Shown here one piece after another: positions 12,383 through 23,754 of a DNA stretch of 64,000 bases; the stretch's first letter is position 1; every line of letters starts with the position of its first letter. The notes under the pieces were generated by a model. The model saw only the letters and a program-made list of their open reading frames with translations. It was not told the DNA's origin and searched no databases. The translations under genes and the position numbers were made by a program. Origin of the DNA: Nitrincola sp. A-D6 (lineage in GTDB: Bacteria > Pseudomonadota > Gammaproteobacteria > Pseudomonadales > Balneatricaceae); assembly GCF_000764495.1 (NCBI RefSeq), contig NZ_JRLB01000031.1, forward strand, positions 1-64,000, in the 5' to 3' direction.

Positions 12383-13731
12383 ATGAACCGCTCTCCTGAT
12401 CTTTTGAACGGACCGATGCGCAGTGTGTTGGTGCAGATGACCATCCCGATGATGTTCGGGATTGTCAGCATTATGCTGTTCAATCTGGCCGATATCTGGT
12501 TTGTCGGACAGTTAGGTACCTTGCCCATGGCAGCTTTGGCTTTTACCTTTCCGGTTTCCTTTGTGGTAATCAGCCTGGCGATTGGGTTGGGAATAGGAAC
12601 GTCAGCAACATTGGCGCGGCGCATCGGTCAGGGCGATACCGGGTCGGCGGCACAGGTAGCTACCTCAAGTTTGTTTATAACCACGATTCTGCTGGTGATC
12701 GTGGGTTTTGCCGGGCAATTTGCCATTGAGCCCGTGTTTAAGTTGATGGGTGCCGAAGCAGAACTCCTTCCCCTGATTCGCGCCTATATGCAGATCTGGT
12801 TTGCAGGTTCCGTGTTTATGGTGTTGAACATGGTATGTAACAGCATTTTACGTGCAACCGGAGATGTGCGTGGCTCGGCGATGATTATGCTATTGGCTTC
12901 ACTGTTGAATTTTATATTAGATCCCTTGCTGATCTTTGGTTTGGGTCCATTTCCGGCCTTGGGTATACAGGGTGCAGCCCTGGCCAGCGTCATCGCTTGG
13001 GGGATCACTACGCTAGTTGCATTGCACCTGTTACATCATCGTCGCCATATGCTGACTTTACGCTTTCCATCCCTGCTGACGCTGCTACGCTACTGGCGTG
13101 AACTCTTCAGTATTAGCGTGCCAGCCGCACTCTCCAATATCACTACACCGGTTGCTAACGGGGTGCTGACCGCTATGGTCGCCCGGCACGGTGCTGAGGC
13201 GGTGGCGGCCTCGGGGTAGGGAATCGTATTGAATCCCTGGCATTGCTGGTGTGCCTGGCTTTATCCATGAGCTTGCCTCCTTTTATTAGTCAGAATTTCG
13301 GTGCGTCCCAGCTGCTACGGATTAAAAAAGCCTATGCGCTGGTGATTCGCTTTGCATTAGCCTGGCAGGTAGTTATTTACTTATTTCTATTGATTTTTTC
13401 GGCACCGTTGGCGGCGCTTTTCAGTGATGATCCTGAAGTGACCCGGCTTATCCGCTTATGGATATTGATAGTGCCGTTGGGCTTTGGTTTTCAGGCGACA
13501 ACCTTCCTCAGTGCATCAGCTTTCAACGCCTTGCATCAGCCTCTGCTGGCACTCAAAGTCAGCCTGATCCGCTTGTTTCTGATGTATTTACCCTTGGGCT
13601 GGTTAGGTAATCAGTTGTTTGGATTGGAGGGACTGTTCAGCGCGCTGGTGCTGGCTAATATACTCACAGCAATTATCGCCTGGTCGTGGATGCGGCAGAA
13701 GTTGACTGGCCTGCTTCATGCCGGGGCTTAG
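12383..13731 (+). CDS. MATE-family multidrug/sodium antiporter, frameshifted
   Basis: Inner-membrane exporter with twelve predicted helices. The start MNRSPDLLNGPMRSVLVQMTIPMMFG is typical of MatE proteins; the middle LRATGDVRGSAM and C-terminal half complete the fold. The frame is lost at the G-run 13213-13216; with one more G the sequence reads AASGVGNRIESLALLVC without interruption. The joined protein is about 449 residues. Substrate unknown. It is transcribed divergently from coaE. Confidence 0.88.
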
Positions 13732-13850: not shown

Positions 13851-14933
13851 ATGAAACTCTTTACCTGTACGGCTTGTGGCAATTTAATCTACTTTGACAA
13901 TGTGTGTTGCACGCAATGTGGAGCCACCCTGGGGTTTCTGCAGGATACTCAGCGTTTAAGTGCCCTGGTACCCGCTGGAAATGGACTCTGGCAACCTGTT
14001 GGTGATACGCGCCTTTACCGTATGTGTAACAATTATACAGGTGCAGGGGTGTGTAACTGGATGATAGAAGCTGAAAATGAGCAGCATTTCTGTCGTGCCT
14101 GTGATTTGAATCAAACCATTCCGGATCTGTCTGTACTCGGTAATACCGAACTTTGGCGTATTATGGAAACAGAAAAGCGCCGTTTGGTGTATTCCTTGCT
14201 GCAACTCAATCTGCCGTTAATGTCACTTAAACATCATTATCGTGGTATGGCATTTGATTTTCTGGCAGACCCTCATCCAAGCTTCAGTGAGCGCTCTAAA
14301 GTTTTGACCGGTCACGATCAGGGTTTGATTACCATCAATCTTGCTGAAGCCGACCCGGCAAAGCGTGAACAGATGCGCGAGCAGATGGATGAACCCTATC
14401 GCACCATATTGGGCCATTTTCGGCATGAATCAGGCCATTATTATTGGGACCGCCTGGTAAGAGACAGTCAGTGGTTACTTCCTTTCCGTGACCTGTTTGG
14501 CGATGATACCCAGAACTATGTGCAGGCGCTGGATAATCATTACCGCTTTGGTGCTCCAGTCGACTGGCGCACACGTTTTGTCAGTGCCTATGCCAGTTCT
14601 CACCCTTGGGAAGACTGGGCTGAAACCTGGGCTCACTATCTGCATATCGTCGATACGCTGGAAACCGCTTACGAATATGGCCTGCAGATACACCCACGTG
14701 TCGGCAGTCAGCATTCCATGAAAGTCAGCCATGATTTTAATGCCTATCATGAGGGAGCATTCGATACTCTGATTGAGCATTGGTTGCCCCTGACGTATGT
14801 GATGAACAGCCTGAATCGCAGCATTGGTCATGATCATGCTTATCCCTTTGTACTGGCACCGGCTACCATTGAAAAACTCCGCTTTGTGCACCGTGTTGTG
14901 CATGGCAGTAACCTGACTGCAGCCCCTGAATAA
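13851..14933 (+). CDS. Putative zinc-ribbon zinc metallopeptidase (Peptidase_Mx-like)
   Basis: 360 residues. The N-terminus has a zinc ribbon (CTACG at 6-10, CCTQCG at 19-24) and a second Cys set at 59, 68, 81 and 84. The catalytic motif is HESGH at 192-196, with a likely third ligand Glu in HPWEDWAETWAHY (251-263). The layout matches a family of putative zinc-binding metallopeptidases found near ATP-grasp and transglutaminase-like genes; its substrate is unknown. No signal peptide, so cytoplasmic. It is 136 bases upstream of the ATP-grasp gene on the same strand, perhaps with its own promoter in between. Confidence 0.75.
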   Translation: MKLFTCTACGNLIYFDNVCCTQCGATLGFLQDTQRLSALVPAGNGLWQPVGDTRLYRMCNNYTGAGVCNWMIEAENEQHFCRACDLNQTIPDLSVLGNTELWRIMETEKRRLVYSLLQLNLPLMSLKHHYRGMAFDFLADPHPSFSERSKVLTGHDQGLITINLAEADPAKREQMREQMDEPYRTILGHFRHESGHYYWDRLVRDSQWLLPFRDLFGDDTQNYVQALDNHYRFGAPVDWRTRFVSAYASSHPWEDWAETWAHYLHIVDTLETAYEYGLQIHPRVGSQHSMKVSHDFNAYHEGAFDTLIEHWLPLTYVMNSLNRSIGHDHAYPFVLAPATIEKLRFVHRVVHGSNLTAAPE

Positions 14934-15069
14934 GAATAACTTTACCTTGACAGCTGGGGGGGCTGGCTTGTTAGGGTCTAAAGGCAAATTCTTAATTAAT
15001 GAAGTTTATTGGCTCGTATAAAGTACTTGATAGGAGTTATTTGAATTTTCAGGCTACAGGAGATACATA

Positions 15070-16293
15070 ATGGAAAAGAATCTGGATAAAGGTTACATAG
15101 CCCTGCTGGGCTGGAGCCTGAGTGCTGTGGAAGCGGCAGAGAAATTTGATCGCAGGTATGTGGTTGTAGCCCCTGATTGGGCTGAAGAATACTGCACACA
15201 ACACAATATTCCCTATGTTGCCTGGAATTTTGAACGCCTGAATGACCGTTCAATGGAAATTGCTGAAACCCTCAAAGAGATGGGGGTGGATGTAGCCATT
15301 CCCATTTTTGAAGAAACTGTGGAGTGGGCTGGTGCCATCAACTCGGTACTGCTGGATAATCCGCGCTTGTTAGGCCAGGCGATGTTGATGCGTGATAAAT
15401 CTCTGATGAAACGTCGTGCTCAACTGGGTGGGATTCGTGTCGGTATTTTTGAGGAAGCGCATGATCGAGAAGATGTCGTGCGTTTTCTGCGCCGCGTTAA
15501 TCAGACGTTGCTGAAGCTTGATGGCGACCCGAATGACCCAATTCATTTCAAGGCGTTTGATAAGGCTGGTTGTTTAGGGCACCGGGTGGTGCGCACACCG
15601 GATGATGTTGATGCTATTCCCGATGATGAGTTTCCAGCGTTGATGGAGTCCCATCTGGATGGCTGGGAATTTGCCGTTGAAGCCTGGATCCATAATGGCA
15701 AAATTTGTTTTTTGAATATTTCTGAGTACGTCACGCTGGGATATTCCGTGTTTGTACCCGCTTCACCGGAGCTGGAAAAATACCGCGATCAAATTAAACA
15801 TCAGATCGAAAAACTGGTCAAAACCTTTGATATTGAATTTGGGATGATTCACCCTGAATACTTTGTCACCAGCGATGGTGAGATGTACTTTGGCGAAGTG
15901 GCTTATCGTCCGCCTGGGTTCAAAGTGTTTGAGCTACTGGAGCGGGTGTATGGCTTCAACGCTTATCAGGCCAGTATGTTGGTGTTTGATCCGAAAACGA
16001 CTGAAGACGAGATCCGGGAGTTCTTTCCGAAGGAAGTGGTCGATGCCAAGGGGTTTGCCGGTTGCTTTGGTGTTTACCCTCGACGCCGGGTTGTCAGCCG
16101 CCTTGAGATTCCTGAAGAAACCGAGGATCACCCCTATTTTGAGTCACATGAATTAACCACGCCGGCTCAGGAAACCGTGACTAAACGCACAGCGTTTGGT
16201 ACGCATTGGGGCTTGGTGTATTTTGTCGGGTCTGAAGCTGATGAAATGAAACGTTTACTCAAACATCAGGAAGAGCTGGATTTTTATATCTGA
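15070..16293 (+). CDS. ATP-grasp domain protein, putative carboxylate-amine ligase
   Basis: 407 residues. An N-terminal Rossmann-like region (IALLGWSLSAVEAAEKF, 10-26) precedes an ATP-grasp domain: nucleotide-binding Lys in HFKAFDKAGCLGHRV (159-173), central strand MESHLDGWEFAVEAW (192-206), and metal-binding Glu and Arg in FGEVAYRPPGF (274-284). Such enzymes activate a carboxylate as acyl-phosphate and join it to an amine or thiol. I do not recognise the specific family. The gene begins with a good Shine-Dalgarno (AGGAG) and is followed after 32 bases by the 673-residue protein, so the two are very likely co-transcribed and act together. Confidence 0.8.
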   Translation: MEKNLDKGYIALLGWSLSAVEAAEKFDRRYVVVAPDWAEEYCTQHNIPYVAWNFERLNDRSMEIAETLKEMGVDVAIPIFEETVEWAGAINSVLLDNPRLLGQAMLMRDKSLMKRRAQLGGIRVGIFEEAHDREDVVRFLRRVNQTLLKLDGDPNDPIHFKAFDKAGCLGHRVVRTPDDVDAIPDDEFPALMESHLDGWEFAVEAWIHNGKICFLNISEYVTLGYSVFVPASPELEKYRDQIKHQIEKLVKTFDIEFGMIHPEYFVTSDGEMYFGEVAYRPPGFKVFELLERVYGFNAYQASMLVFDPKTTEDEIREFFPKEVVDAKGFAGCFGVYPRRRVVSRLEIPEETEDHPYFESHELTTPAQETVTKRTAFGTHWGLVYFVGSEADEMKRLLKHQEELDFYI

Positions 16294-16325
16294 TGTTGGA
16301 TCGGTAGTCATAAAAGGATGAGCAA

Positions 16326-18347
16326 GTGAGTCAGGGTATTGAAGAAGTAGAGCAGACTAACCCGAAGCTTGATGCCTTGCTGCAAAAGCTGGATGCAGGT
16401 ATTGAGCGCCTGGCGCAGGCACCTGAGTTTGCCAAATATGACAAGCTGGTGGTTGTGCTGGATCTGGTCAGGCGTGTCTTGCTGCAGCCAGGTGGCTGTG
16501 CCGCGTTAGAAAGCCGAGCTGAAGGGATAGAGCAGGCTGGCGTGTTTGCCGGTTCTGACTGGCAAACGCCGCAGTTTTTGGTGCCTTCTCTGACCTCACA
16601 TTCATTGCAGAGTGCGGATGCCAACTTGCTGGTGATCGAGTCACTGAGTGAAATTCGTCTTCTGGCAGTTGCCATGGATGGCTATCGCCATCCACTGATC
16701 TCTGCTGAACAGGCTCACCACTACCTGACACAGGTCATGGCGATTAATCTGGCCTTGTTATTCACACCACCCAGTGAAGCCGAGCGTGAAACTCAGGGGC
16801 GTTTAGCACAAATCCCACGGCTATTGTTCGAGTATCTGGCGCATCGGATAGGTTATGAGCATGTAATTGATCAGTTGGTTGATGAAATCTGGCGCATCCT
16901 GCAACAACGCCCAATTCAGGTGGATGCGGTCAAACGCATGGTGACTCAGATTGCGATCTGCCAGCATAATCCGGATATAGATCTGGGTAGCAGTGGGCAG
17001 GGGGCGGCCCGGTTAGTCAGTAGTCTGTTTGGCACCACTCAGGCGTGTCGTGAAGATCCGGGTGTTGATGTCTACAAAGACAGGCTAGCGAGTATGGATA
17101 ATCAAGCCTTGCAGTCAGAAGCAACTGGCTTTGCCAGAGCCATGCACGACACAGGTTTGGTGTCACCTTATCATGCTGTGTTGCTGCGCCACCTGCTGGC
17201 GGTGGATGACTACTTGCTGATTGAAGCGCTGGGCTTGTCTTCAACCGGTCGGGATTGTTTTATGTGTTTCCGCCAGTTGATCCAGGCACTGATCCGTCAG
17301 GTGATTCTCCCGGCTACGGCTCAAGGCATTTACGGCCTGTCATTGATGCTGGAGCGCGGCATTCTCTATCAGCCTCCGGTCGCACCGGCGCTCTGGCGGC
17401 AGTTAGGTCTACCCTTGTGCAAAGCAGCGCAAACACGCTTAACCTTAGCCTTTGGCGATCAGGTATCCGTCAATGCGCGTTTACTGGAAGGCGTGCTGTG
17501 TATTCTGGGGCAACCACTGGGTGTTGGACAGGGTAACAGTCCAACCTGTCAGTCAGCCCGAGCCCTGTCCATGTGGGCTTACAATGATCCGGATTATCTG
17601 TTGCAGATGCTGGTCTGGGCGGCCAGGGATGATGAAGTAGTTATGCACTTTGAGGGTCAGCCTATTTCATCTCGCGATTGCCAGGCCGGCATTGCTGGAG
17701 AAACGCCCATAGATCTTGATCCGGTTTCCTTGCTGTTGGTCCCCCATCTTGATCGTATCTACGCCGAGATGGGGCGCCGCTGTATTGGTCGGGAGGGCGA
17801 TCCACATCGCTGGGTCAACCCCGAGTTTCATGGCTGGTGGTCAGGACGTGGATTTCGCATCAATGTTGATGTTGCCACCGGTAAGTTTCAGGATCTGGAT
17901 GAGTTTATCCGGGCATTTTATGCCTGTTACCATCCTTATTTTAACGGCAACCAACCACTGATTCATCCGCAACCTGCCGGTATTGCCATTACTGACTCAG
18001 CCGCGCGTTTTATTGGCTGGCATGCAATCACTCTGTTGCGTGTGGCACTGGATCCTGAGGATGTCATGCGGGTGTATTTCTATAACCCGAATAATGACAG
18101 TGGGCAGAACTGGGGTGATGATGTGGTAGTGAGCACGGCGGGAAAAGGTGAACGCTTTGGTGAAGCCTCTTTGCCCTTTGCGCAATTCACGTCACGTTTG
18201 TATATCTTTCACTATGATCCACTTGAAGGCGGGGCTTTGGCAAAAGTGCCGCAGGATGAGCTGGATGAAGTACAGGGTTATATGCTAAGAAGTTGGGGAA
18301 TGGACCGTCAACCTCCTGATGTAGCGTTGCAAGCGGCTGTACAATAA
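16326..18347 (+). CDS. Large uncharacterised protein with papain-like Gln/Cys/His/Asn pattern
   Basis: 673 residues, no signal peptide or membrane helix. Residues 1-390 look helical and resemble nothing I know. Residues 395-600 carry GQGNSPTCQSARALSMWA, with Gln402 six residues before Cys408, the spacing of the oxyanion Gln and nucleophile Cys in papain. GWHAITLL (His566) and VYFYNPNND (Asn587) follow in the right order. This suggests a papain/transglutaminase-fold peptidase or acyltransferase. That is inference from motif order and spacing. It is in an operon with the ATP-grasp gene. The name of the family, if one exists, is not known to me. Confidence 0.7.
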   Translation: MSQGIEEVEQTNPKLDALLQKLDAGIERLAQAPEFAKYDKLVVVLDLVRRVLLQPGGCAALESRAEGIEQAGVFAGSDWQTPQFLVPSLTSHSLQSADANLLVIESLSEIRLLAVAMDGYRHPLISAEQAHHYLTQVMAINLALLFTPPSEAERETQGRLAQIPRLLFEYLAHRIGYEHVIDQLVDEIWRILQQRPIQVDAVKRMVTQIAICQHNPDIDLGSSGQGAARLVSSLFGTTQACREDPGVDVYKDRLASMDNQALQSEATGFARAMHDTGLVSPYHAVLLRHLLAVDDYLLIEALGLSSTGRDCFMCFRQLIQALIRQVILPATAQGIYGLSLMLERGILYQPPVAPALWRQLGLPLCKAAQTRLTLAFGDQVSVNARLLEGVLCILGQPLGVGQGNSPTCQSARALSMWAYNDPDYLLQMLVWAARDDEVVMHFEGQPISSRDCQAGIAGETPIDLDPVSLLLVPHLDRIYAEMGRRCIGREGDPHRWVNPEFHGWWSGRGFRINVDVATGKFQDLDEFIRAFYACYHPYFNGNQPLIHPQPAGIAITDSAARFIGWHAITLLRVALDPEDVMRVYFYNPNNDSGQNWGDDVVVSTAGKGERFGEASLPFAQFTSRLYIFHYDPLEGGALAKVPQDELDEVQGYMLRSWGMDRQPPDVALQAAVQ

Positions 18348-18408: not shown

Positions 18409-20107
18409 TTATTGCGCCATCAATGGATCACTCATACCTACCAGATGCAGAGCGATGAGCGTAATCAGGCCTGCCATGATCAGATAATAAATCGTCGGAA
18501 TAATGGTCAAACGGATTGTTTGGCCCTCACGTCCGAGCAAGCCCACGGTTGCTGAAGCCGCAACGATGTTGTGGATGGCAATCATGTTACCGGCAGCGGC
18601 ACCGACAGCCTGAGCGGCGATCAGCATGGCGCTGGAAACACCGATTAACTGGGCTGTGTCAAACTGGAACTGCGCCATCATCAGATTGGATACTGTGTTT
18701 GAACCGGCGATGAAGGCTCCCAGCGCACCCACAGTGGCAGCAAAGAAGGGGTAAACATCACCGACACTGCCGGCCACCAGTTCTGCCATAGCACGGGGCA
18801 TGGAGGCAAGTCCCCCAGGTTAACGCCTGAGTTAATCAGGATACGCACCATCGGGATGGTGAACAGCAACACAAATCCGGCTCCCAGCAGCGTTTTGGAC
18901 GACTCGCTTACCGCTGCGCGTAGCTCACCGAACTGCATCCGATGGAGCAGGAAGGTAGCCAGTACCACCATAATCATGATGCCGCCTGGCAAATACAGGA
19001 ACTGTATACTGCCGGATACGCCAGCTTCACCGAGAATATTCTGCCAGCCCAGTACCAGGTTTTGGGTGAAGAAGGCCTTTACATCCGCATTGACGCGGGA
19101 TAAAACCAGTAATACACCCAGCAGCAGGTAGGGAATCCATGCCAGTGCCATCGACATGGGTGCTTTAGCCGTCAGACTATCGAGTTTAATTTCGATATTT
19201 CCCATCCACTCCACTGGCCAGTCTCTGGCATCAGCAAAGTCCCAGGTCTTTTTAGGTAGCAAGAAACCGGCTTTAGCCGCAGGAACCACAATAATCAGGC
19301 CAACCAGGGCGCCGATCATGGATGGGAATTCCGGCCCAAGGAATACACCGGCTGCAGCATAAGGAATAACAAAAGCGATACCGGCAAACAGGGCAAAGGG
19401 CGCCATTGCCAGACCTTCACGCCATGAACGGTTTTTACCGAAAAAGCGCGTCAGCATCATGACCATAAACAGTGGCATAAGCACACCGATCAGTGCATGT
19501 ATGATGGCGACTTCGGAGGTAATCAAACGATAGAAGGTGTCCCAGTCAGAGCCCTGAGCAATCAATGCTTCAGTAATGCCTGCACGATCCAGCCCGCCAG
19601 TCACACCTACGACGATCGGTGTACCCACCGCACCGAAGGACACCGGCGTAGACTGAATCATCATGCCTACCATGACTGCACCGAGGCAGGGAAACCCAGA
19701 GCAACCAGTAACGGGGCAGCTACAGCGGCTGGTGTGCCGAAACCGGAAGCCCCTTCAATAAAGCAGCCAAACAGCCAGGCTACAATGATGACCTGAACAC
19801 GGCGGTCCGGGCTGATATTGGAAAACCCACCACGAATCGCGGTGATAGCACCGGAATGCTTAAGGGTGTTTAGCAGCAGGATGGCGCCAAAAATAATCCA
19901 CAGGATGGCACCGGTAAGAATTAAGCCTTGTAGGGTTGAGGCCAGTACGCGGTTAAACGTCATTTCCCAAGCGGTGAGGGCGATCACAGCGGTAACGACA
20001 AAGACTACAGGCATGGCGCGTTTGGCAGGCCAGTGCAGTCCGACCAGCAAAATAGCCGCCAATACAAGCGGTGCAAATGCCAGCAACGAGAGCAGGGTGG
20101 AATTCAT
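18409..20107 (-). CDS. lctP: L-lactate permease, two frameshifts
   Basis: Membrane lactate:H+ symporter of the LctP/GlcA family. The start at 20107 gives [21 protein letters not shown]. Family landmarks are [47 protein letters not shown] and [17 protein letters not shown]. The frame breaks at 19685-19686 (one G short; corrected [12 protein letters not shown]) and at the C-run 18812-18816 (one C short; corrected [12 protein letters not shown]). Rejoined it has about 566 residues, the normal size. A palindromic operator 47-67 bases upstream suggests control by an LldR/PdhR-type regulator, which is not in the window. Confidence 0.92.
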
Positions 20108-20153
20108 AAAACGTTCTCTAGTCCAGTTAATTGTGTATTTATACTTAGTTGGG

Positions 20154-20174
20154 TAAATTGGTATTACCAATTTA
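20154..20174 (-). promoter_or_regulatory. LldR/PdhR-type operator upstream of lctP
   Basis: Perfect 21-base palindrome TAAATTGGTA-T-TACCAATTTA. Its core AATTGGT-ATT-ACCAATT matches the consensus bound by PdhR and LldR, GntR/FadR-family repressors responsive to pyruvate or lactate. Its place about 50 bases before the lactate permease ATG fits repression relieved by lactate or pyruvate. Confidence 0.7.
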
Positions 20175-21204: not shown

Positions 21205-21236
21205 ACGAGTAAGCCCCGTTTACGGGGCTTACTCGT
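21205..21236. terminator. Bidirectional hairpin between phaB and the DUF349 gene
   Basis: ACGAGTAAGCCCCG (21205-21218) pairs with CGGGGCTTACTCGT (21223-21236), a perfect 14-bp stem with loop TTTA. It includes the stop codon of the minus-strand gene. No long U-run, but position and strength suit shared termination. Confidence 0.7.
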
Positions 21237-23624
21237 TATGTGTCAGTAATGTATTGAATCGTTCGTGTAAACACTCGAACTGTTCAGCGAAACCCCCTTC
21301 ATGCCATTCTTCAATAACCTGTTGAACAGCAATTTTGCGTTCAGTGTCTGAGCAGGGTTCAAGGGCTTCCTGCAAACGCTGCATCTGATACTCCATCCGC
21401 AGGTACTGGTCATTATCCGGGCTGGGTTGATTGAAAAGTATTTCCAAACGTATACACAAAAGCCGTGCAGCTGTTTCAGGATTCTCATCAGTAGGATGCT
21501 GATCTGAGGAATGCTGATCTTGTGACAGCGTCCTGATTCGGGCAAAAATTTGATCGCCGTGGCTGCGAAAAGCTTCCCAAAGTTTGCGTTCCTTGTGCTT
21601 GGCGGTGCTATCAATGCTTTTCCAGGCCTGTTGCAGGGCTTTGATACCTTCAGCTGCAGCAACTACATCTTCATCTTGAGTCAGTCGCTGAGCCTCATCA
21701 ACCAACGCCTGTTTTTGAATGGCGCAATGGTTACGGTGAGCTTGCAGTGCTTTATCAGCCTGGTCGATTAACTGCTGAAAGCGTGCCTGCAACAGCTTTC
21801 CAGGGGCGCGATCCACGGGTGAAAACTCCCGCCATTCATGCTTGGCTTTTTTCAGTATCTGTTCCAGTGCCCGCCAATCGGGTTGTGACCAGTTTAGTGT
21901 GCTGAAATAGGTTTCCAGGTGCTGGCAAATCAGTTCACGCTGCGACAGGTTCCAGGCACGTAATCGACTGAGTTCCTTATAGTAAGCATCACAGGGTTGA
22001 TAGGCCTGACGTGAGGCTGCGTGAAAACGCTCCCAGAGATGTTTGACTGGAGCAGGGGACTGTTGATCTAACTGCTTCCATTGCTGCTGCAGTGCACGTA
22101 TCTGCTCTGCCAAAGCCGCAGGTGCGAGGTGGCTGTCTATCAATGCTTCCATGGCAATGCAGAGTTGCTCTTTCTTGGAAATAGCCGCAAATTGTTGCCA
22201 CTCGGACATCTCATTGACCTGGGCTAAAAGATTTCGAAATTGCTGCTGCAGGGCTTCGGATAGTGGTTGTTTTTTGACCTGTTTGCTTAAGCTGTCAAGT
22301 AATTCCTGTGCTTTCAGGGTTTCGCCTTGCTTAATGTGAGCATCGAGCACACTCAGCTGCTCTTCAATCACGGCCTGTGCAGTCTGGTCTTGCTGTTTAA
22401 ACTCTTGCAGACGTTTTTCAACTTGTTGGCGCGTTGCTGTCAAGGCTTTAAGGTCCAGCACAGAGTGCAGTGCCTGTGGCCAGTTGTATGACTTCAGTGC
22501 CTGATTAATAGCCTGCTGGCTTTGCTGTAGCGTATGCACATCACCTGCCGCATTCGCCTGCTCAATTACGCTGCGAAAACCTGGGTTGTGTTGTTGCAAT
22601 GCCCGCAAAGCCTCAATGATTGTAGTAATTTCATCTATTTTTTGGTGTTCGGCGTTTGTCAGATGGGGAGCATATTCTGTTAATAGCTGTTGTATTTCGT
22701 TCTCTGGTTTGACCCAACTGAGTTCTGTGTCATTTTGATCAATCGAGAATTGCTGCAATTGGTCTAACTGTTGGGTAATCATATTTTGGCATAGTGCAAG
22801 CCGCTGACGTGCCATCGCCAGGGCCTCTTCGGCCTCAGCCTCGGCGTTCTGTTTAGCCACTTGTTGTTGCAGGATCAGTTCGGCCTTGCTGGCCAGTTGC
22901 TCATACGCTTCTGTCTCACCGCTTTGCTGATGATTTGGTAGCTCATTCCATTGGTTTTGCAGGGCCTGGAAACGGGCACTGAAAAACTGCCTGTCCGGGC
23001 TATTTATCAGATTATGCAGATTGTCCAACAGGGTAAGGCGCTGTTGCTGTATGGCCTGCTGTTCCAGCTCAAGCTGGTGCCTGCGCTTTTGTGTATCACG
23101 CGTAATACGATAAACCACCTTGTCATGATCTTTGGCAAAGTTACGCACTTTTTCAAGACAGTCTGGATCATTGAGTTGAGAGGCTGCCAGTTGACGCGTT
23201 GCGGTGAGTGGGGCGCGCATGGCAATGTCAGACAGTAGTAATTCGTTAATTATGCGAGGAAGTAGCGCGTGATGCAGTGCTTCACTCTGGCTGTGACGGA
23301 TGAGTAGGCTGAGTGCAGTTTCAGACTGAACAGATTCAAGCTGTCTTGGGTTGATCAGCCCTGTTCTGTCAAGGTGATCAGCCTGGATGCAGCCAGGTCG
23401 GCAAGCGCTGGATTGGCACTCTGCTCAAGCAGTTCAATTAGAAGCTGCAAATCCGTCAGGCGTGTTATAGCAACGCTCCGGACTTCGGGGTCCGGGTCGT
23501 GATAGGCAAGCTGCCTAAGTTTTCCGGCATCAGATTTTTTGTTGGGGTTGAGTTTTGTTGCCGCAAGACTGCGCACAGCAGCACTCGGATGACGCCATCT
23601 GGGTTTTAACAGGTCTACAAACAT
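21229..23624 (-). CDS. DUF349 coiled-coil protein with HEAT-like N-terminus, frameshifted
   Basis: About 799 residues. The first ~140 residues resemble HEAT-type repeats (HPSAAVRSLAATKL, DPEVRSVAITRLTD). The rest is long Gln-rich coiled coil with several DUF349 repeats, seen as W-containing units such as WKQLDQQSPAPVKHLWERF and WREFSPVDRAPGKLLQARF. The frame breaks at 23358 (one G of a GG short); corrected it reads TEQGLINPRQLESVQ and joins the two parts without loss. The ATG at 23624 is taken as start. Function unknown; DUF349 proteins are soluble and widespread in gammaproteobacteria. Confidence 0.8.
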
Positions 23625-23754
23625 CAATCACCGTAACCGGACGTTAAGTCCGGCAATCCTTAAATATGGCTAAGCTAACGCTAAGGCGGACTATTCTACC
23701 GGTGCGAGGTGTTGCAATAAAAGCCTTGATTGCAGCCTAAGTCGAAATAGTTGC

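Follow-up and report, generated by a model that had tools for sequence, protein, structure and literature searches.

A conserved gene pair of an ATP-grasp ligase and a divergent papain-like protein in Nitrincola sp. A-D6 and other Pseudomonadota

Introduction

In the butirosin pathway, the ATP-grasp enzyme BtrJ acts upstream of BtrH. BtrH is a papain-like acyltransferase of butirosin biosynthesis, and an acyl carrier protein (ACP) is named in the same account (excerpts of PMC10318531). These excerpts, citing Iyer et al. 2009, also describe papain-like DUF3335 proteins, often fused to GNAT, together with a possible peptide ligase. In RimB-RimK and Rlo (RloA-RloB-RloC), an ATP-grasp protein is tied to a peptidase, and mutations in RloB and RloC rescue the loss of proteases (excerpts of PMC12239564). 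Here, we discuss two adjacent genes of Nitrincola sp. A-D6, one encoding an ATP-grasp ligase (ATPG) and the other a papain-like protein (PAP), which lie within the first 64,000 nucleotides of contig NZ_JRLB01000031.1 (this whole stretch is hereafter called the window; its genome, G000, comprises 3.8 Mb in 117 contigs). A first-pass annotation of this DNA had combined both genes with a metallopeptidase gene upstream into one possible peptide-ligation and cleavage system. Genome comparisons support ATPG and PAP as a unit that is conserved and recurs in different families, whereas the metallopeptidase gene was found beside the pair in two sibling genomes only; thus, co-occurrence supports the pair but not the trio.

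Results

ATPG (15070-16293, + strand, ATG start) encodes 407 amino acids (aa) and is followed by PAP (16326-18347, + strand, GTG start; 673 aa). The 32 bases between them (16294-16325, + strand), as given in the first-pass annotation, are consistent with a single transcript. Including the metallopeptidase gene, which is separated from ATPG by 136 bases, the coordinates of the open reading frames (ORFs) confirm three + strand genes in a row. Between the window and a sibling genome, G010, the ratio of nonsynonymous to synonymous substitution rates (dN/dS) was 0.047 for the metallopeptidase gene, 0.013 for ATPG, and 0.022 for PAP; such strong purifying selection argues that the three ORFs are not chance. 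Promoter- and terminator-like sites were no commoner than in shuffled sequence (7 vs 5.2 and 7 vs 5.7, respectively).

We investigated how regularly the two genes occur together. Genome searches covered Pseudomonadota. A scan of genome contigs yielded at least 590 confirmed stretches with PAP, the best 80 of which were kept as loci, and a full-length ATPG adjoined PAP in 73 of these 80. One further locus (L062) ends at a contig end; in its genome, ATPG is matched twice, each time in part and on a different contig. The remaining six (L046, L056, L057, L065, L069, and L078) have no full-length ATPG beside PAP, but all six genomes behind them carry a full-length copy elsewhere. ATPG fragments remain at L056, L069, and L078, and a 93-aa remnant ORF at L046; in these four loci, the decayed remnants lie within about 400 bases upstream of an intact PAP. 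The combination of a remnant beside PAP and a full-length ATPG elsewhere in the genome is an apparent case of partner replacement. Across all loci, we counted 98 distinct pairs, in which ATPG precedes PAP on one strand in 90, the order is reversed in 3, and the genes lie on opposite strands in 5.

In a sample of 398 Pseudomonadota genomes, strong PAP matches and strong ATPG matches were found in the same 11 genomes, representing seven genera, and in no others. Weak matches were set aside here (PAP in G288, 5e-4; ATPG in G267, G385, G456, G286, and G363, 1e-3 to 1e-5); they were short, with 23-30% identity, and the five ATPG ones were generic ATP-grasp matches. In a class-level sample, PAP was present in 8 of 274 genomes including G000, and ATPG was present in all of the other seven, while among 96 relatives PAP occurred in 7, again including G000. 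Over all searches, every PAP-bearing genome tested also contained ATPG (39 of 39; in one of them, the evidence for ATPG was two partial matches from different contigs); 16 of these genomes had been chosen via loci known to hold PAP, and G757 was excluded as having the same locus as G008. Conversely, no ATPG match was obtained in six members of the genus that lack PAP. Trees of the two proteins were correlated in a mirror-tree comparison (r = 0.77, reached in 0 of 500 permutations; 98 pairs thinned to 70, with the kinship of the species uncontrolled). Of the 11 PAP-bearing genomes in the 398-genome sample, 8 had a single PAP. Repeated co-occurrence in genome neighborhoods, the check suggested in the first-pass annotation, was found for ATPG and PAP across different families.

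The bearers of the pair are mostly salt-loving bacteria. As a single-gene control for movement we used GalU from the window, a copy that may be shortened. Identities to the window for GalU, ATPG, and PAP were 46, 87, and 73% in G064 and 45, 83, and 72% in G078, compared with 76, 75, and 56% in G029 of the same family. Eleven genomes gave a near full-length GalU match, and in 10 of them ATPG identity exceeded GalU identity; a twelfth genome, G061 (75% complete), had only a short GalU match. In addition, the genes surrounding the pair differ between families, although flanks recur within Halomonadaceae. Because ATPG is more similar than GalU and the neighborhoods differ, the results fit horizontal movement of the pair, and the pair looks to be horizontally mobile. 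Compared with PAP, ATPG had a mean tree distance smaller by a factor of 2.7. In L002, from a metagenome-assembled genome named Nitrincola, a PAP 81% like that of the window stands beside a divergent ATPG (74%), and G008, of the same genus, holds the same locus. From this combination we infer that the ligase partner is exchangeable while the pairing is kept. Plasmid mobility was rejected, the one match being on a 1.83-Mb Halomonas replicon typed as non-mobilizable, and phage or viral origin was rejected because no relative was found in viral contigs or phage records.

The first-pass identification of gene 2 as an ATP-grasp enzyme held up, mainly by structure. ATPG reached no curated Pfam or NCBIfam cut-off: it scored 26.5 bits against ATP-grasp_4 (PF13535), just below the cut-off of 27, and 28.4 bits against PRK07206, far below 302. 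Its AlphaFold2 model has a modest mean predicted local distance difference test score (pLDDT) of 69.0. The best structural match of this model was the L-amino acid ligase BL00235 (3vot; Z 24.0 over 342 residues, root-mean-square deviation (rmsd) 4.8), followed by RizA (4wd3; Z 22.5) and YwfE (Z 21.1); a purine-pathway ligase equaled YwfE in this list, and biotin carboxylases ranked lower. Foldseek with the same model gave E 2.2e-17. The ATP-grasp fold spans the whole length of ATPG, as in BL00235 and RizA, and RizA also has the same E-x-A-x-R motif, whereas identity to these two enzymes is only 16-18%. Five residues, K110, K161, E263, E276, and R280, which we take to be ATP- or metal-binding, are identical in 110 of 110 copies, and minimum identity over these copies is 73%. 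Grounded in the fold of the model, ATPG is predicted to be an amide-bond former of the L-amino acid ligase type. We know of no papain-like partner for L-amino acid ligases of the BL00235/RizA type.

PAP is considerably more divergent from known families. Searches of its sequence against Pfam and NCBIfam gave nothing at E ≤ 1, and those against PDB gave nothing at E ≤ 10. When 36 aligned PAP members were compared with Pfam, six families appeared at E ≤ 10, none in more than three members, and none of the members matched the Peptidase_C2 (PF00648), BtrH_N, or phytochelatin synthase models at this threshold; PF11814 (DUF3335) was likewise unmatched. The papain-like residue pattern reported for gene 3 is nevertheless real. 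Among 111 distinct copies with at least 85% coverage, Q402-x5-C408, H566, and N587 are identical in all, C408 is the only strictly invariant cysteine, and Ala follows H566 and Pro follows N587 in every copy. PAP thus has the ordered Q, C, H, and N catalytic-type residues of clan CA enzymes. The likeness to the calpain core extends to the spacing, with Q six residues before C, and to the residue after the His ('HA') and after the Asn ('NP'): the three bacterial calpains that we compared have the elements NQG-x4-C (Q six before C), GHA, and RNPWG.

In the structural model of PAP (mean pLDDT 82.6), the first half is helical and the second mixed, with the papain-like part in the C-terminal half at about residues 370-635. 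For the second half, the 15 best structural matches were all calpain cores (Z 6.5-7.6), led by the calpain-3 core, which aligned with model residues 370-630 (Z 7.6, rmsd 4.3, 204 residues; a clear match is Z ≥ 8), and bacterial papain-like peptidases ranked below them at Z 5.0-5.2, interspersed with helical matches of Z up to 6.2. The helical first half had no clear structural match in the whole-model comparison. In a profile comparison (hhalign) with the three bacterial calpains, Q402 and C408 were in register. PAP differs from calpains in lacking a Peptidase_C2 match, in the added long helical first half, and in that this profile comparison was not significant.

The pair can also be set beside the systems introduced above. 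It shares with RimB-RimK and Rlo the association of an ATP-grasp protein with a peptidase, but those systems use retropepsin-like aspartic proteases and a RimK-like ligase, and Rlo additionally an inactive transglutaminase membrane protein; PAP matches no Pfam model of such a protease, and ATPG matches no RimK model of Pfam or NCBIfam at E ≤ 1. With the DUF3335/GNAT systems, it shares a papain-like domain and a possible peptide ligase, but PAP does not match PF11814, nor was any PF11814 match found in G000. The likeness to BtrJ and BtrH is that of an ATP-grasp ligase feeding a papain-like enzyme, whereas the butirosin pathway uses an ACP and PAP lacks a BtrH_N match. Sequence models thus give no membership of ATPG or PAP in these families, although they may have a like mode of action.

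Although modules of a ligase and a peptidase are already known (Rim, Rlo, and DUF3335/GNAT), the combination of ATPG with PAP, and the PAP family itself, appear to be undescribed. No description of the pair was found in the open-licence PubMed Central literature searched, including excerpts of PMC10318531, PMC4631099, PMC7824862, PMC4431377, PMC2922099, PMC6376114, and PMC12239564. PMC4631099, which concerns bacterial calpains, makes no mention of Halomonas, Nitrincola, or Alcanivorax in its main text.

A few loci have additional genes around PAP. In L115 (8025-13838), a PAP paralogue without adjacent ATPG is closely followed by genes for a GCS2-type ligase (23.3 bits, cut-off 21) and an AstE/AspA-like protein (23.8 bits, just below the cut-off of 25). 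The same two gene clusters occur near a PAP paralogue without ATPG in L126 (8279-12865), Pfam having been run on the L115 copies only. In L110 (7053-13091), genes for a transglutaminase-like protein, an N-formylglutamate amidohydrolase, and a SHOCT-like protein (below cut-off) precede PAP and ATPG on one strand. These neighbors, though few, point the same way, toward a function in making or processing amides.

We also noted a 636-aa protein, with a C-terminal half like ketoacyl-ACP synthase III, that recurs near PAP paralogues in L115, L126, and L127 (5640-7547; models run on the L127 copy). A divergent form of ATPG (ORFs of 435-459 aa with an extended N-terminus) occurs in L206, L207, and L210 near a gene resembling, by eye, a NYN-domain nuclease. 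Both L110 and L113 have a gene for an M24 peptidase close to the pair; a link to ectoine was dropped, as these genes score 194.6 and 174.7 bits against an ectoine-hydrolase cut-off of 575. In the window itself, the pair is accompanied by genes named by eye as a MATE-type transporter (12383-13731) and a lactate-permease-like gene (18409-20170), and by a third gene (21229-23627; 663 + 90 aa). Each of the three is broken into two or three ORFs but intact in G010 (locus L109; 449, 566, and 800 aa), which suggests sequencing indels or recent decay.

Discussion

We tentatively favor the interpretation that ATPG and PAP constitute a self-contained, horizontally moving two-gene module in which ATPG makes an amide and PAP, a thiol enzyme, trims or hydrolyses that same product; we regard this as only a shade likelier to be wrong than right. 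ATPG would activate a carboxylate with ATP, via an acyl phosphate, and join it to an amine; the product would be an aminoacyl or peptide amide, borne by either a protein or a small molecule. PAP would act through a papain-type Cys-His-Asn site, probably in the cytosol, and its long helical domain would bind the substrate or a partner. By trimming or hydrolysing the amide, PAP would, together with ATPG, set the level of one modified compound. The first-pass annotation had assigned formation of an amide or isopeptide bond to the ATP-grasp enzyme and its processing or reversal to both other proteins. Bond formation is grounded in the ATPG fold and PAP remains a candidate for the second step, whereas the metallopeptidase drops out as a bystander.

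Several observations weigh against this interpretation. G078 holds six PAP matches (one a fragment) against two ATPG, and because it has more PAP than ATPG, PAP may have uses independent of ATPG. The PAP copies counted for residue conservation are at least 44% identical and share 90 invariant positions, so invariance is weak evidence for any single residue. Whole-PAP Foldseek searches against PDB and BFVD returned nothing at E ≤ 0.001, and the helical structural matches to the first half and middle of PAP (Z up to 6.2) look like chance. Since the best papain-fold match (Z 7.6) is below the level that the tool treats as clear (8) and the profile comparison with the calpains was not significant (P 0.58), the fold is unproven. 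PAP is therefore papain-like by residue pattern, a papain fold is likely, and the calpain matches are suggestive only. Its probable cytosolic location is taken from a polar N-terminus judged by eye. Moreover, ORF clustering of the fetched flanks revealed no third gene shared across families, only scattered matches.

Alternatively, PAP may be an acyltransferase that passes the aminoacyl group of the ATPG product through a Cys408 thioester to a second acceptor, as in BtrH or phytochelatin synthase, which are papain-fold acyl- or peptidyl-transferases (excerpts of PMC10318531). We consider this unlikely, though by no means far-fetched: a two-step pathway accounts for co-occurrence with a ligase no less well than a make-and-break cycle does. 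However, none of the 36 PAP members matched the BtrH_N or phytochelatin synthase models of Pfam at E ≤ 10, and no carrier-protein gene was noticed beside the pair, although no search was aimed at one.

Another alternative, which we regard as improbable, is that ATPG adds a tail or tag to a conserved protein, PAP being the enzyme that removes or matures this addition, as in Rim and, by analogy, in Rlo. RimB-RimK provides a precedent for this arrangement (excerpts of PMC12239564). The high conservation of ATPG, seen in its minimum identity over 110 copies, its dN/dS of 0.013, and its excess over GalU in most genomes, would fit a slow-changing macromolecular target, but would also fit recent transfer. 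On the other hand, ATPG matches no RimK model, and the neighborhoods offer no candidate for a tag gene, as none of their genes accompanies the pair from family to family. Structurally, ATPG is nearest to L-amino acid ligases, which make dipeptides.

That all three genes of the window form one ligation-cleavage system, as first proposed, is very improbable. Gene 1 (13851-14933, + strand, ATG start; 360 aa) does encode the zinc-ribbon metallopeptidase that the first-pass annotation described, with matches to PF15887 Peptidase_Mx (E 1.4e-103) and the PF10005 zinc ribbon (6.1e-30), and the window and G010 agree in the strand and order of the three genes. These two siblings are, however, the only genomes in which Peptidase_Mx was found beside ATPG and PAP. 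It had no match in any of the best 80 PAP loci (14 of these span less than 17 kb), and the gap to ATPG is the longer one noted above. Among the 96 relatives, PF15887 was present in 21 genomes including G000, of which 5 bear PAP, and G000 and G010 were the only two in which it adjoined PAP; the surroundings retrieved for the Peptidase_Mx copy of six other genomes contained neither PAP nor ATPG. The three-gene system was rejected on this distribution, from which we judge the metallopeptidase gene to be a bystander outside the ATPG-PAP system. The family can sit with amidoligases: in G008 (L215 763-3501), a Peptidase_Mx homologue overlaps a PF12224 Amidoligase_2 gene, which in turn overlaps a PF07722 Peptidase_C26/GATase gene, possibly a separate ligase-peptidase operon. 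In the other five genomes, no amidoligase neighbor was found among the eight flanking proteins scanned.

Finally, an anti-phage or toxin-antitoxin type conflict system is hardly credible, because, although patchy distribution and movement between distant relatives would fit one, PADLOC gave only a 10.9-bit match of prokaryotic Argonaute (pAgo) to ATPG (E 0.036), so that a defence system was rejected for want of any sign, no relative was found in viral contigs or phage records, sequence evolution is very slow, and most PAP-bearing genomes of the 398-genome sample have a single PAP.

Our favored interpretation of a make-and-trim module leaves room for a bolder version, which we hold to be rather unlikely: a minimal, mobile, obligatory machine of a ligase and a thiol-transferase, in which a new bacterial family of calpain-like enzymes would take over the aminoacyl group that an L-amino acid ligase makes, and put it on a conserved target or take it off again. 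If true, it would represent a previously unknown, dynamically reversible peptide modification or a new peptide metabolite of halophilic and marine Proteobacteria. The few peptidase-paired ligases studied so far have a bearing on ribosome modification and on stress tolerance (excerpts of PMC12239564). Comparative genomics could hardly demonstrate a much tighter coupling than that of ATPG and PAP, and so small a unit would lend itself to testing with a single set of knock-outs and the two purified proteins. The PAP family, which has no Pfam or NCBIfam model although it occurs in at least 590 stretches, and always with the same ligase in the genomes tested, would add a new papain-like family to a heavily studied fold.

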